A stretch of DNA of 35,117 bases from a virus: positions 1 to 35,117 of the IMG/VR virus record IMGVR_UViG_3300007734_000619. The stretch is one strand, 5' to 3'. Below the pieces are notes generated by a model, which was given only the letters and a program-made list of their open reading frames with translations, searched no databases and was not told the DNA's origin. Shown here one piece after another: positions 4,143-34,998 of the stretch. The first letter of the stretch is position 1; each line of letters opens with the position of its first letter. A program made the translations under genes and the position numbers.

Positions 4143-6473
4143 ATGGACTTTTTAGAGTTTTTTGCATCGCTTGCTCCCACTGGAGAGAGCGCGCTAATTG
4201 TCAAACAAAAGCCCCGCACGGTCAAGGGCGTTGAGCAATACACATGGCCCCCGTTCTTGCCTGAAAAATACCGCGCCGGCGGCGCGTGGTACGGCAATAC
4301 CGGCAGCTTCATTCTTGACCGGATGCGCGACGGTAAACTCAGCGCCAGTGCCGCCAACTGCACGCACTGCCTAGTTTTGGTCTTGGACGACGTGGGCACG
4401 AAGGCGAAAGTGCCGCCGCTGGCCCCGACGTGGCGCATGGAAACTTCGCCCGGCAACTTCCAATATGGTTACGTTCTCAGCGTCCAGCCGACCTGCGGCG
4501 AGTTTACCGCCGCCATCAAGGCCATTGCCGAGGCCGGCTTCACCGACGGCGGGGCGACCAACCCCGTACGTAATTTCCGTCTGCCCGGATCGGTTAACCT
4601 CAAGCCGGGGCGCGACGCGTGGGCGTCGGTGCTGGTCGAGTTTGAACCGGCGCGCGAGTACACGCTGGCCGAAATCTGCGCCGCGCTAGGCGTGACGCCC
4701 GCCGAGGCCGACACCGCCGGCCCGCACCGCATCGATCTGGCCGACGACGGCGGCGACGACGTGCTGGCGTGGTTGTCGGAGGCCGGGCACCTGACCGCCC
4801 AAGGCAATAGCGCCGGGTGGTGGGGCGTGGTCTGCCCCAACAACGCCGCGCACACGACCGGCGAGATCGAAGGCCGGTATATGCCCGTCAACCGCGCCTA
4901 TACCTGCCTGCACGAGCATTGCTTGGAATGGGATAGCGTCGCCTTTCTCGAATGGGTCGCGTCGCAGGGGGGCCCGGCACATGCGCCCGGTCTGCGCTCC
5001 GAACTGCTCGCCCCGGTCATGCAGGCCGCGCTCGCTAAACTGAAGCCCGGCGACCTGTTCAGCGCTGGCACCGCCGCCGGCGCCATGATCGCCGCCGTCG
5101 AACACAAGGAATTGGGCCGCGTCGAGAAGGCCGGATGGTATACCCGCTTCGCCTATATCCAGTCCGACGAGGCATTTTTTGATACCCAAGAGCGCGCCCT
5201 GATCCCGCGCAGCTCGTTTAACGCCCTATTCCGGCATGTGCCGTGCTATTCGATTCACACCGACGCCAAGGGCAAGGCGCGCCGCGTCGAGGCGTCCATC
5301 TGCTACGACGAGAACCGGCAGGCAATGGGAGCCCCGACCCTTGCGGGCCTAACCTACGCCTCGGGCGACGGCGTGCTGGTGGCGCAGGCGAGTGCTAACT
5401 ACGGCAATATGTGGCGCGACGCCCGCCCGCCGGTCAACCGCGAACTGAAGGCCGACTTGTCGCCGTGGCTGGATCACTGCGCCGCCCTGATCCCGAACGA
5501 GGCCGAGCGCGCGCATATATTCAATGTCATGGCCTGCAAGCTCCAGAACCCGCGCGTCAAGATCAATCACGCGATACTGATCGCCGGGTATCAAGGCTCC
5601 GGCAAGGATACATTTTGGGCGCCGTTCCTGTGGGCCGTCTGCGGGCACGGCGACACCGCGCGCAACAAGGGCGAATTGAGCAACACGACGTTAAACTCGC
5701 AATGGGGCTATGCCTTAGAGGCCGAAATTATCATCCTGAACGAACTACGCGAGAGCGAAGCGAAAGAGCGCCGGGCCCTAGCGAACCACCTGAAAGGCAT
5801 TATTGCTGCACCGCCGCATGTTTTGGTGGTCAACAAGAAAAACCAACACCCGTACAACGTCGTAAACCGGTGCCTGGTGATCGCCTCGTCGAACGATTCC
5901 GTGCCGATAACGCTTGATTCGCAGGATCGCCGGTGGTTTTGTGTCTGGTCGGGCTTGGGCCGTATGGAACCCGAGCGCGGGCGTCAATTGTGGTCGTGGT
6001 TTGAATCCGGCGGTTTCGAGGCCGTCGCCGCTTGGCTTTACCGGCGCGACGTGCGCACCTTCAACCCGGCCGCAGCGCCGCCCGTAACTGAATACAAGCT
6101 GAACCTGATCGATAACGGGCAATCGCCCGCTGAGAGCGTGCTGTGCCAGATGATACGGAACCGCGAAGGCGCATTCGAGGCCGGCGCTGTCGCCGCACCT
6201 TTTCACGTCCTGTGCGCCGACCTGACGCTCCGCGCCGGCCTGGCGCCGGGCTTGCGGATACCGGCCGCCGCGCTGTATCACGCCCTGCTGGAGTGTGGAT
6301 GGGTAGACTGCGGGCGCGTCGCCAGCGCTGAACTGACCAGCAAGCGCCACGTATACTGTGCGCCGGAACTGTCGCAGCGCGCGAAGTCAGAACTGCGCCG
6401 CCTGGTAGAAACGTCGCCCGGATCGGCGCTAGGCGACGCGCTTAAAAAATCGCCATTATCGGCGGTTAGATAG
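4143..6473 (+). CDS. Bifunctional primase-helicase (AEP-like primase plus DUF5906/SF3-type ATPase)
   Basis: 776 residues. The N-terminal half resembles archaeo-eukaryotic-type phage and plasmid primases: acidic LDDVG (res 81-85), METSPGNFQYGY (99-110) and RNFRLPGSVNLK (143-154). The C-terminal half is a helicase ATPase: Walker A GYQGSGKD (482-489, K488), Walker B IIILNE (529-534) and a sensor-like NRCLVIASSND (575-585) followed by a DRRW arginine motif. This order is typical of primase-helicases with a DUF5906 or D5/VirE-like motor. It would unwind the phage genome and make primers for the polymerase encoded just upstream. Shine-Dalgarno AAGGA at about 4130 sets the ATG at 4143. Confidence 0.88.
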   Translation: MDFLEFFASLAPTGESALIVKQKPRTVKGVEQYTWPPFLPEKYRAGGAWYGNTGSFILDRMRDGKLSASAANCTHCLVLVLDDVGTKAKVPPLAPTWRMETSPGNFQYGYVLSVQPTCGEFTAAIKAIAEAGFTDGGATNPVRNFRLPGSVNLKPGRDAWASVLVEFEPAREYTLAEICAALGVTPAEADTAGPHRIDLADDGGDDVLAWLSEAGHLTAQGNSAGWWGVVCPNNAAHTTGEIEGRYMPVNRAYTCLHEHCLEWDSVAFLEWVASQGGPAHAPGLRSELLAPVMQAALAKLKPGDLFSAGTAAGAMIAAVEHKELGRVEKAGWYTRFAYIQSDEAFFDTQERALIPRSSFNALFRHVPCYSIHTDAKGKARRVEASICYDENRQAMGAPTLAGLTYASGDGVLVAQASANYGNMWRDARPPVNRELKADLSPWLDHCAALIPNEAERAHIFNVMACKLQNPRVKINHAILIAGYQGSGKDTFWAPFLWAVCGHGDTARNKGELSNTTLNSQWGYALEAEIIILNELRESEAKERRALANHLKGIIAAPPHVLVVNKKNQHPYNVVNRCLVIASSNDSVPITLDSQDRRWFCVWSGLGRMEPERGRQLWSWFESGGFEAVAAWLYRRDVRTFNPAAAPPVTEYKLNLIDNGQSPAESVLCQMIRNREGAFEAGAVAAPFHVLCADLTLRAGLAPGLRIPAAALYHALLECGWVDCGRVASAELTSKRHVYCAPELSQRAKSELRRLVETSPGSALGDALKKSPLSAVR

Positions 6474-9189: not shown

Positions 9190-9395
9190 ATATATGCCAT
9201 ATAGGCCATCGATAGGCCATCGCGCTTTCGCAGCGGTCATAGGGGGATTGGCCATATATGCCATATATCAAGAAAGTAGAAGTCCTATTTTAAAATATTA
9301 TATATATATATAGTACAGGGCATGCGCGCCACATCGGCGCTGCGTGCGCTGGCGCGGCTCGACTTAAATTGCCGTGATATATGGCATATATGGCC
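9190..9395. repeat. AT-rich region with three ATATATGCCATATA elements; candidate origin or control region
   Basis: The core ATATATGCCATATA occurs at 9190-9203 and within a 21-bp element at 9250-9270. That 21-bp element is repeated perfectly in inverted orientation at 9375-9395. Between the inverted copies lies a run of almost pure A/T (about 9285-9313, containing TTTTAAAATATT and alternating TA). A direct repeat of TAGGCCATCG follows the first core. Symmetric elements around an easily melted core in a divergent gap suggest a replication origin, a regulator-binding region, or both. The assignment is inference. Confidence 0.55.
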
Positions 9396-9425
9396 TATAA
9401 CGCGATTGGCGTTACAATCGCGGGC

Positions 9426-9626
9426 ATGAAGGGCAGACCATGCAAAATTGATACGATAGCCTTTCGGCGCCCGCTGACGCCAGTAGCGCGCGCGGTATTG
9501 TTAGCAGCTGGCGCGGGCGATCTCTCGCAAGGCTGGAATGAGATTCTAGCGATCTACCAGCACTTGCACGCGCTAGGGTACCGCCCGGGCATGCGCCCGG
9601 AAAATATAGCGTTAGTGAAAAAATAG
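9426..9626 (+). CDS. Small protein, possible DNA-binding regulator (66 aa)
   Basis: Starts MKGRPCKIDTIAFRRPLTPV at 9426; an in-frame ATG at 9381 lies inside the inverted repeat and would add 15 residues. The start is uncertain because neither ATG has a good Shine-Dalgarno. The KGRPCK head is reminiscent of an AT-hook core. The body (ARAVLLAAGAGDLSQGWNEI, then HALGYRPG) resembles short helical phage proteins that often have a ribbon-helix-helix flavour, but no family is assigned. It directly follows the AT-rich repeat region, so binding those repeats is a reasonable hypothesis. Confidence 0.55.
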   Translation: MKGRPCKIDTIAFRRPLTPVARAVLLAAGAGDLSQGWNEILAIYQHLHALGYRPGMRPENIALVKK

Positions 9627-9678
9627 GGCATAAAGGCCGCCGCCCACATACTTTTTAGTTATAAGGGTTAAAATTCAA

Positions 9679-10124
9679 TGGCCTGGTGGCGCTGGCCTGA
9701 TGGCCTGATGGCCTGATGGCCTGGTGGCCTGATGGCCTGATGGCCTGATGGCCTGGTGGCCTGATGGCCTGATGGCCTGATGGCCTGATGGCCTGATGGC
9801 CTGATGGCCTGATGGCCTGATGGCCTGATGGCCTGATGGCCTGATGGCCTGATGGCCTGATGGCCTGATGGCCTGATGGCCTGGTGGCCTGATGGCCTGA
9901 TGGCCTGATGGCCTGATGGCCTGGTGGCCTGGTGGCCTGATGGCCTGATGGCCTGATGGCCTGATGGCCTGGTGGCCTGGTGGCCTGATGGCCTGGTGGC
10001 CTGATGGCCTGGTGGCCTGATGGCCCGCTGGCCCGCTGGCCCGCTGGCTCGCTGGCCCGCTGGCCCGCTGGCTCGCTGGCCCGCTGGCTCGCTGGCCCGC
10101 TGGCTCGCTGGCCCGCTGGCTCGC
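9679..10124. repeat. Octanucleotide satellite, 54 perfect-length 8-bp units
   Basis: After a flanking unit (9679-9686) and a 6-bp unit TGGCGC (9687-9692), 54 consecutive 8-bp units run from 9693 to 10124 with no length change. Units 1-41 (to 10020) are TGGCCTGA (32) or TGGCCTGG (9). Units 42-54 are TGGCCCGC (8) or TGGCTCGC (5), with the last eight strictly alternating as 16-bp dimers. Eight is not a multiple of three, so the A-type units put a TGA in every plus frame. The minus strand is open in all three frames with an 8-residue period. It lies between the control region and the terminase genes. Confidence 0.97.
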
Positions 10125-10308
10125 TGAATGTTGCAGCGCAGCATAGGGGGGAGGGGGTATTGGCTGGCGCGTAAACTTTGCGGTGCCCCCTCCCCTCTGA
10201 AAAACGGAAAACGGGCAACCGGAAACTACTTGCAGACTGTGGAAAAAAGAGCAAGCAAGATACTTGCAACCGCGCAATAGCGATTTCGCTGGTGATGAGT
10301 TATATTCC
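10125..10308. other. Non-coding leader of the late operon with G-rich inverted repeat
   Basis: No gene is visible. GGGGAGGGGG (10148-10157) and CCCCCTCCCC (10186-10195) form a perfect 10-bp inverted repeat with a 28-nt loop. The two adjacent G-runs could also form a non-B structure. TACTTGCA occurs twice as a direct repeat further on. I find no convincing sigma70 promoter here, although the late operon must be transcribed through or from this region. Confidence 0.5.
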
Positions 10309-10710
10309 ATGGCAAATAAGGCATATATGGACAATCCACCGGTGATAGACGGTAGACCCAAGCGGTATCGAGCGCCGAAGGTGCTGCCGAAGACGGACTA
10401 CCAGCGTTTGAATGAGCTGAAGCAGATGCTGCTGGACAGCAGTGGTCGGCGCGTAGTGCAGAAGGTGGTAGACATTGCGATGGACGACGGGCATCCGAGC
10501 CAGATGGCCGCGCTGAAGTTGTGTATGGAGCGCACGCTGCCGGTCAGCTTGTTTGAGAAGGACAAGGGGCACCGTGGTGCTGTGACGATCAACATTACTG
10601 GTATCGGTGAAGTCACCGCCAGCGCGGTCATAGACGCAACACCGGAACCGGAAGATGTAGAAGAAGAAGCAGACACCGACACCAAAGCCAACACCAAGGA
10701 CGCGACCTGA
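10309..10710 (+). CDS. Putative terminase small subunit
   Basis: 133 residues from the ATG at 10309, with a weak GATGAG ribosome site. The body is a helical stretch (YQRLNELKQMLLDSSGRRVV, QKVVDIAMDDGHPSQMAALK) followed by a TLPVSLFEK turn and a short beta segment VTINITGIG. The tail is very acidic (EPEDVEEEADTDTK). This composition and its position immediately before the large terminase, with stop and start overlapping as TGATG, support a DNA-recognition subunit of the packaging motor. Annotation rests mainly on context. It would recognise the phage packaging site, possibly the satellite or leader just upstream. Confidence 0.65.
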   Translation: MANKAYMDNPPVIDGRPKRYRAPKVLPKTDYQRLNELKQMLLDSSGRRVVQKVVDIAMDDGHPSQMAALKLCMERTLPVSLFEKDKGHRGAVTINITGIGEVTASAVIDATPEPEDVEEEADTDTKANTKDAT

Positions 10711-34267: not shown

Positions 34268-34521
34268 TCGTCCACCTGTCCTTTTGTCCATAAGCACGTA
34301 TACCGCTGTCCTAATTGGCGCATGTCCTCGGCAAACAAACCTTGCAGCTTGGATAACCGACCGCCGGGTTTCTTCAATTCCACAAACCACGTCGCCCCGT
34401 TCGGCAGACAGGCGATGCGATCTGCCACCCCGCGCTGCGCGGGTGAGCGAAACTTGTAAGTGCGCCCGCCGTTGCGCTGCACAACCCAGTCAAAATACTG
34501 TTCGACTTCTTTTTCTAGCAT
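34240..34521 (-). CDS. VRR-NUC domain nuclease (93 aa)
   Basis: Complete minimal PD-(D/E)XK nuclease: E6, KFRSPAQRGVADRI (res 23-36, D34), FVELKKPGGRLSKLQ (46-60, E48-x-K50, Q60). Phage VRR-NUC proteins stand alone and cut branched or single-strand/double-strand junction DNA, in line with its SNF2 helicase partner. The start at 34521 overlaps the XF1762 stop by 7 nt. Confidence 0.92.
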   Translation of the reverse strand: MLEKEVEQYFDWVVQRNGGRTYKFRSPAQRGVADRIACLPNGATWFVELKKPGGRLSKLQGLFAEDMRQLGQRYTCLWTKGQVDEWFSDHTKK

Positions 34522-34958
34522 TTACGTTCCCATCGGATACGGGAAATGCCCCCGCTGGCTATATCGGCGCGGGGCCGACTCGGTGTATCCCACCCCTTTC
34601 GGGGGGCTATTTCAGCTACTGCTGTCCATCCAGCACCACGCAAACTGGCGCCGGATTCGGTTCCTTGCGTATACGTTACGCATTTCAAATACCCTAACGC
34701 GGTGGCAGCGCGAACGATGGCGCCGTAGAGCATGGAGTTAGCATTGCGCGTGCCGTCTGTGCAGGTGCGCGTCACTTCTAACGTCAGCCCATCATCAAGC
34801 GCCCGCGCAACTGGCCGCCCCGCCGTAGCAATGCCCACCATCCGTTCGCCGTCGAACAAGCCAATACTGAATTTATGGCCCACCGGCGGTTTGTTGTGCC
34901 GGTGATGCTCGCGCACATACTCTTGTGCGGTTTTTAGTGATACGGGTTGGATGACCAT
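34515..34958 (-). CDS. XF1762 family protein (copy B, complete, GNAT-like)
   Basis: 147 residues from ATG 34958, MVIQPVSLKTAQEYV, the same start as copy A at 1-174; a longer start at 34979 is not supported by the paralogue. HHRHNKPPVGHKFSIGLF (res 18-35), RMVGIATAGRPVAR, LEVTRTC and DGTRNANSMLYGAIVRAA (about res 68-85) suggest an acyltransferase-like (GNAT) fold, with the last block near the acetyl-CoA site. The substrate is unknown. First gene of the minus-strand accessory chain, next to a divergent plus-strand promoter. Confidence 0.85.
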   Translation of the reverse strand: MVIQPVSLKTAQEYVREHHRHNKPPVGHKFSIGLFDGERMVGIATAGRPVARALDDGLTLEVTRTCTDGTRNANSMLYGAIVRAATALGYLKCVTYTQGTESGASLRGAGWTAVAEIAPRKGWDTPSRPRADIASGGISRIRWERKC

Positions 34959-34968
34959 GTAAAAAAGT

Positions 34969-34998
34969 TTAGCACACAAATAAAAAGTGTGGTATTAT
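34969..34998 (+). promoter_or_regulatory. Candidate sigma70 promoter at right edge
   Basis: TTAGCA (34969-34974) and TATTAT (34993-34998) with an 18-bp spacer. The arrangement and distance to the start (ATG 35030 after AAAGGA at 35017-35022) copy the left-edge promoter at 204-233, although with weaker hexamers. Confidence 0.55.

Follow-up and report, generated by a model that had tools for sequence, protein, structure and literature searches.

A probable replication origin with paired word repeats, and its candidate DUF5906 initiator, in a group of mostly uncultured phages

Probable origin and its candidate reader

The DNA analyzed here (the window) is the whole of a 35,117-bp IMG/VR virus record (IMGVR_UViG_3300007734_000619, positions 1 to 35,117). 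The region at 9190–9395 of the window, in which copies of a short word are arranged as an inverted repeat around an A/T-only run, is very probably a phage replication origin, as judged from sequence comparison. The covariation of the repeated word with two residues of the DUF5906 primase-helicase encoded by the same genomes points to this protein as the reader of the word. On the best reading, the region resembles the origins of phage-inducible chromosomal islands (PICIs), including the Staphylococcus aureus pathogenicity islands (SaPIs), and is read by the DUF5906 protein.

Structure of the repeat region

A perfect 21-bp inverted repeat (9250–9270 and 9375–9395, with 104 bp between the arms) is the longest in the whole window for gaps of up to 300 bp, and the second-longest, of 14 bp, pairs 9190–9203 with 9378–9391. 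The inverted repeats in 40 dinucleotide shuffles of the 400-bp region reached 12 bp at most. An earlier note on this DNA, made from the letters alone, had reported the 21-bp repeats and a third partial copy at 9190–9203, and both were borne out. Each arm consists of the 9-mer ATATATGGC twice in tandem; this 9-mer is expected 0.2 times and was found four times, always in the region. The longest A/T-only run of the window (27 bp, 9286–9312; the next is 16 bp) lies between the arms, as had been claimed for a core of about 30 bp, although it is somewhat shorter and sits beside the left arm (15 bp away) rather than centrally (62 bp from the right arm). A block of 55–75% G+C separates it from the right arm. 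The location between divergent operons was also confirmed, the region being bounded by minus-strand genes (to 9090) and by a small plus-strand open reading frame (ORF; 9426–9626). The features of the region are as follows.

9250–9270, minus strand: left arm with ATATATGGC in two tandem copies; putative binding set 1 for the initiator
9375–9395, plus strand: right arm with ATATATGGC in two tandem copies; putative binding set 2 for the initiator; same right arm in the near relative L025
9286–9312, unstranded: 27-bp A/T-only run, proposed DNA unwinding element; AT-rich block at the same place in relatives
9313–9359, unstranded: G+C-rich block with a 7-bp inverted repeat (9325–9331 and 9350–9356); GC-rich block here in relatives
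9360–9369, plus strand: CGACTTAAAT element, noted by eye without statistics
9190–9223, minus strand: degenerate outer copies ATATATGCCATATAG and GGCCATCGATAGGCCATCG, weaker copies of the word

An element similar to that at 9360–9369, [G]CGAYTT, was seen by eye directly before the right arm in L421, L431, L449, L473 and L599. When the arm of the window was used in an exact 16-mer search, mostly chance matches were returned, and the useful match was L025.

Conserved architecture and changing words

Relatives were gathered through terminase and small-protein searches, which found many; Megablast against phage records gave no match. The contigs, of about 33–36 kb, have one circular gene order in common: VRR-NUC/SNF2 (minus strand), DUF2800-DUF2815-PolA-DUF5906 (plus), variable small genes (minus), the repeat region, and then the small protein, terS, terL and structural genes (plus). 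Since their break points differ, the genomes appear to be permuted or circular.

At 15 loci (window included), an inverted repeat of 13–22 bp, longer than that of every shuffle, was found upstream of the small protein, with an arm gap of 71–108 bp and an AT-rich 25-mer beginning 11–21 bp inside the left arm. The words in the arms vary between loci and include TGACAATTTGACCCA (word A) and ATGACTACATGACTAAC (word B) as well as others; the own word of the window is TGGCATATA, and a third word, GCCAACATAGCCAACA (word K), was found beside further DUF5906 genes. Conservation of the repeats in related phages, which the earlier note had tied to its origin proposal, was therefore found for the architecture but not for the letters. 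Beyond the arms, the words recur as direct repeats with a spacing of about 10 bp; apart from this one locus, where they cluster, they are rare in each genome. In a sister clade (terminase 84–86% identical), the arms were not found.

The retention of complementarity while the arm letters change would also be expected if the arms paired as an RNA stem or a DNA cruciform and only complementarity were conserved. This explanation is very improbable, because pairing accounts neither for the outer direct repeats of the same word nor for the covariation of the word with two protein residues described below.

When viral contigs were scanned for words A and B, the hits came from this family and from viruses that have only the replication module in common with it; the words are thus present in viruses without small, terS or terL genes (L258, L267, L275, L283, L315, L317 and L322). 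Because the words go with the replication module into phages that lack the neighboring genes, the second proposal of the earlier note, a DNA-looping repressor region, became less likely, and its first, a replication origin, was supported by the kept architecture together with the skew change described below.

A more distant case is L599 (GenBank MW202483.1, Podoviridae sp. ctNMl277), the complete genome of an uncultured podovirus, in which the DUF5906 relative carries the annotation "virulence associated protein E". At 9820–10010, it carries an AT-rich core between TTGGTAGT and ACTACCAAC repeats.

Covariation of the word with the DUF5906 protein

Words A and B were compared over 43 aligned DUF5906 rows (24 A and 19 B), in which near-copies were kept and one B genome was present twice. 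Residue 727 was Ala in 24/24 A rows and Met in 19/19 B rows, and residue 729 was Arg in every B row (19/19) and in none of the 24 A rows. These two columns, out of 774, were the only ones that separated A from B perfectly, and label shuffling gave at most one separating column (mean 0.05); a re-run with 47 rows gave three. In a tree from which the C-terminal domain had been left out, the word label changed at least seven times, on the starred branches. The near-identical proteins of L355 (word A) and L274 (word B) had 10 differences in residues 1–700 and 16 in the rest, from residue 726 on. No column separating words A and B was found in PolA, DUF2815, DUF2800, the small protein, TerS or TerL. 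When the hypervariable DUF5906 domain was inspected by eye in 11 genomes, nothing was visible before word-labeled sets were compared. Because the word changes together with two of its residues, the DUF5906 primase-helicase is indicated as the probable reader.

The product of 9426–9626 had been put forward in the earlier note as the DNA binder. That role was not upheld, given that no column of this protein separates the words while DUF5906 has perfectly separating columns; moreover, L218 and L219 differ at few residues of the small protein and yet have different words. A left-operon gene was also rejected as the reader, as the gene content there is too variable.

A further candidate was a packaging (pac) site recognized by the small terminase subunit, as the region adjoins terS, word copies occur upstream of terS, and circularly permuted contigs fit headful packaging. 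However, 0/113 TerS columns separated word A from word B, which ruled out TerS as the reader, and the same words are found in phages without this TerS/TerL; a pac site is thus a most implausible explanation. Binding of the arms by a host protein that varies from host to host would agree with words common to phages with different structural genes. This is the least credible of the explanations, since it predicts neither the covariation at 727 and 729 nor a pair such as L355 and L274, whose proteins differ mainly from residue 726 on.

Another explanation is an operator region, in which the arms bind a repressor or activator of the divergent left operon and of the small-terS-terL operon. The location between divergent genes agrees with this, and the outer word copies abut the promoter box of the small ORF and are also found ahead of terS in several genomes. 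Nevertheless, the left-operon genes differ among genomes of one word, no encoded regulator following the words was found, the primase-helicase was the only covarying protein, and the same words are seen in viruses whose downstream genes differ. A lambda-like cognate repressor following the words was not seen among the left-operon ORFs of at least 45 amino acids. An operator is therefore unlikely as the main role, and a secondary effect of the region on transcription is possible.

Domains and predicted fold of the proposed initiator

The gene of the proposed initiator and the codons of the covarying residues are located as follows.

4143–6473, plus strand: DUF5906 primase-helicase, proposed initiator, with an archaeo-eukaryotic primase (AEP)-type N-terminus, a superfamily 3 (SF3)-type helicase and a predicted C-terminal winged helix, based on Pfam, model and covariation
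6318–6344, plus strand: codons for residues 726–734, predicted wing tip with the covarying residues 727 and 729, based on alignment and model

The protein of the window matched Pfam DUF5906 with 44.4 bits (curated cut-off, 27.6); DUF5906 was matched in 27/27 relatives and RepB_primase in 20/27. In the structure model (predicted local distance difference test score, 81), the helicase part matched NrS-1, SaPI5 Rep, PriRep1 and D5; the best structural match was NrS-1 (6k9c, Z 24.1), SaPI5 Rep was among the closest folds to the helicase, and the N-terminus resembled AEP PrimPol/RepB'. The C-terminal domain, folded alone, was predicted as helix-strand-helix-helix-strand-wing-strand, with 727 and 729 at the hairpin tip. 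Its fold matches were individually weak (best Z 6.7) and for the most part winged-helix chains; the origin-binding domain of P4 alpha was absent among the fold matches listed. According to the model, residues 727 and 729 are thus predicted to lie on the wing of a C-terminal winged helix.

Word K and the limits of the code

The first DUF5906 proteins noted beside word K had Ala727, Arg729 and Gln732, and it was predicted in writing beforehand that further K viruses would have them too. Across 42 K loci (35 new and 7 contigs already seen), the prediction held at 727 (Ala, once Gly) and at 729 (Arg) in 42/42; its third part, Gln732, failed (26/42). A broader count agreed with the 727/729 rule for the main words. 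Two rare combinations, TGACTAT with Met/non-Arg and TGACAAC with Ala/Arg, turned up in a single genome each. The "words" GCCAAT and GCCGAx in that count were partly coding-sequence or tandem-array noise, as checked in L446, L450 and L456. A clean two-residue code for all words was not upheld, given a permissive Ala727 and the exception of L599 to the pairing of Arg with C. Individual residue–base contacts, such as Arg729 with C at one position and Met727 with T at another, are hypothetical.

GC skew across the region

The earlier note had named a skew inflection near 9.3 kb as a check on its proposal. The GC skew at four-fold sites was negative for the plus-strand replication genes in 11/11 genomes and positive for the plus-strand packaging/capsid genes in 14/14, so that genes of the same direction have opposite skew across the region. 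Because both gene sets are on the plus strand, the change does not come from gene direction. In a fit that included transcription, applied to seven genomes, the position of the switch relative to the small ORF ranged from −4.75 to +0.5 kb, at a resolution of 2–5 kb.

Several observations weigh against an origin read by the DUF5906 wing. The skew fit is no finer than this resolution, its best interval stops to the left of the region in 3/7 genomes, and it did not locate a replication terminus in the seven genomes. The word copies found upstream of terS leave room for a role in transcription. As for the reader, the related genomes are not independent, and the Ala727/Ala729 of the window leave its word TGGCATATA unaccounted for, this combination being paired elsewhere with ...CAAT. 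Furthermore, Ala727 occurs with other letters in L450, L594 and L464, and in L599, a distant relative, Pro729 goes with C at the "Arg" position.

Comparison with known systems and proposed mechanism

In PICI origins, an AT-rich region is invariably flanked by two sets of iterons (PMC6092414), and according to that 2018 paper the PICI organization is found in no other known bacterial replicon. SaPI Rep recognizes its origin through the C-terminal domain of the helicase (PMC7581432). In the window, likewise, two sets of short repeats flank an AT-rich region, and the covariation of 727/729 with the word suggests that specificity comes from the C-terminal domain of the initiator-helicase. Unlike those of PICIs/SaPIs, the proposed origin lies about 2.7 kb past the end of the DUF5906 gene (6473), beyond minus-strand genes, rather than immediately 3' of it; its near-perfect inverted arms are spaced about 100 bp apart; and the genomes are those of autonomous phages, not satellites.

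P4 alpha combines primase, helicase and a winged helix that binds origin repeats in one protein (PMC4234260), and the same three parts, the winged helix being predicted, are combined in the window protein. However, the primase of P4 alpha is of the TOPRIM type, whereas the window protein has an AEP/RepB-type N-terminus, and a second site like crr of P4 was not established. Compared with PICIs/SaPIs and P4 together, the group of the window stands out by its AEP-type primase and its frequent switching of specificity. The NrS-1 prim-pol shares the Pfam DUF5906 helicase and was the top structural match. For NrS-1, an 8-nt template motif for priming, with an unknown basis of recognition, and no inverted iteron origin like the present one have been described (PMC7102993). 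AEP primase, SF3 helicase and winged helix are also joined in one protein in Bordetella phage BPP-1/BIP-1 and plasmid pRN1 (PMC4234260), as predicted for the window protein; the origin proposed there is a stem-loop 3' of the gene, in contrast to the iteron arms covarying with the protein here.

The C-terminal winged helix of the DUF5906 protein would bind the tandem words in both arms. By analogy with these systems, the assemblies on the two inverted sets may then melt the A/T-only run, the SF3 helicase domain may be loaded as opposed rings, and two forks would start bidirectionally, with primers made by the AEP domain. The steps past recognition are drawn from analogy.

Neighboring features

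The features next to the region are as follows.

9413–9418, plus strand: −10-like box TACAAT, 7 nt upstream of the small-ORF ATG, noted by eye; TATAAT in L025
9426–9626, plus strand: conserved 66-amino-acid protein, first gene of the packaging/structural operon, not the word reader
10320–10331, unstranded: degenerate copy of the word at the start of terS; in several relatives, the word is likewise present upstream of terS

In several relatives, a TACAAT/TAGAAT −10-like box likewise lies only about 7 nt before the start of the small ORF, as for a leaderless transcript. The small-protein family (66–90 amino acids, 88 loci) is found upstream of terS and starts with a G/A-RP motif; no Pfam or PHROGs match was found for it, and no relative in the phage records searched. 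Besides the copy at 10320–10331, word copies upstream of or at the start of terS were observed in G008 (6558 and 6567), G012 (8769 and 8778) and G003 (5541), and these terS-proximal copies may form a second binding site. A long tandem array of the 8-bp unit GGCCTGAT and its variants occupies positions 9678–10130, between the small ORF and terS; other short-unit arrays occur at the same place in relatives (GGCTCGTC in L073, GCTG-rich in L075 and CTGC-rich in L154).

L191 and L193 seemed to have a contig end in common, 69 bp ahead of the small ORF, but this was not confirmed, as their sequences differ at that place. L112 and L151 are one contig (IMGVR_UViG_3300043446_000617, 68218 bp) with two terminase loci about 34 kb apart, which has the appearance of a double-length genome. 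The minus-strand protein at 34515–34979 is presumably similar to DNA modification proteins of the Mom/acetyltransferase type.

Implications for the phage group

A likely origin and initiator can thus be assigned to an abundant freshwater phage group for which the phage collection searched contained no close cultivated relative, and a candidate DNA-reading surface to a Pfam family still named "unknown function". Protein–DNA specificity can be tested directly on natural pairs that are near-identical but differ in their words. It is conceivable, although we lean slightly against it, that this large, mostly uncultured group has exchangeable origin "dialects", in which the wing tip reads the variable word base by base and wing and word have been swapped jointly and repeatedly. 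Origin incompatibility or competition among co-infecting relatives are possible reasons for such frequent switching of origin specificity. If such dialects exist, they could determine whether phages infecting the same cell have access to one another's replication machinery or are shut out from it.
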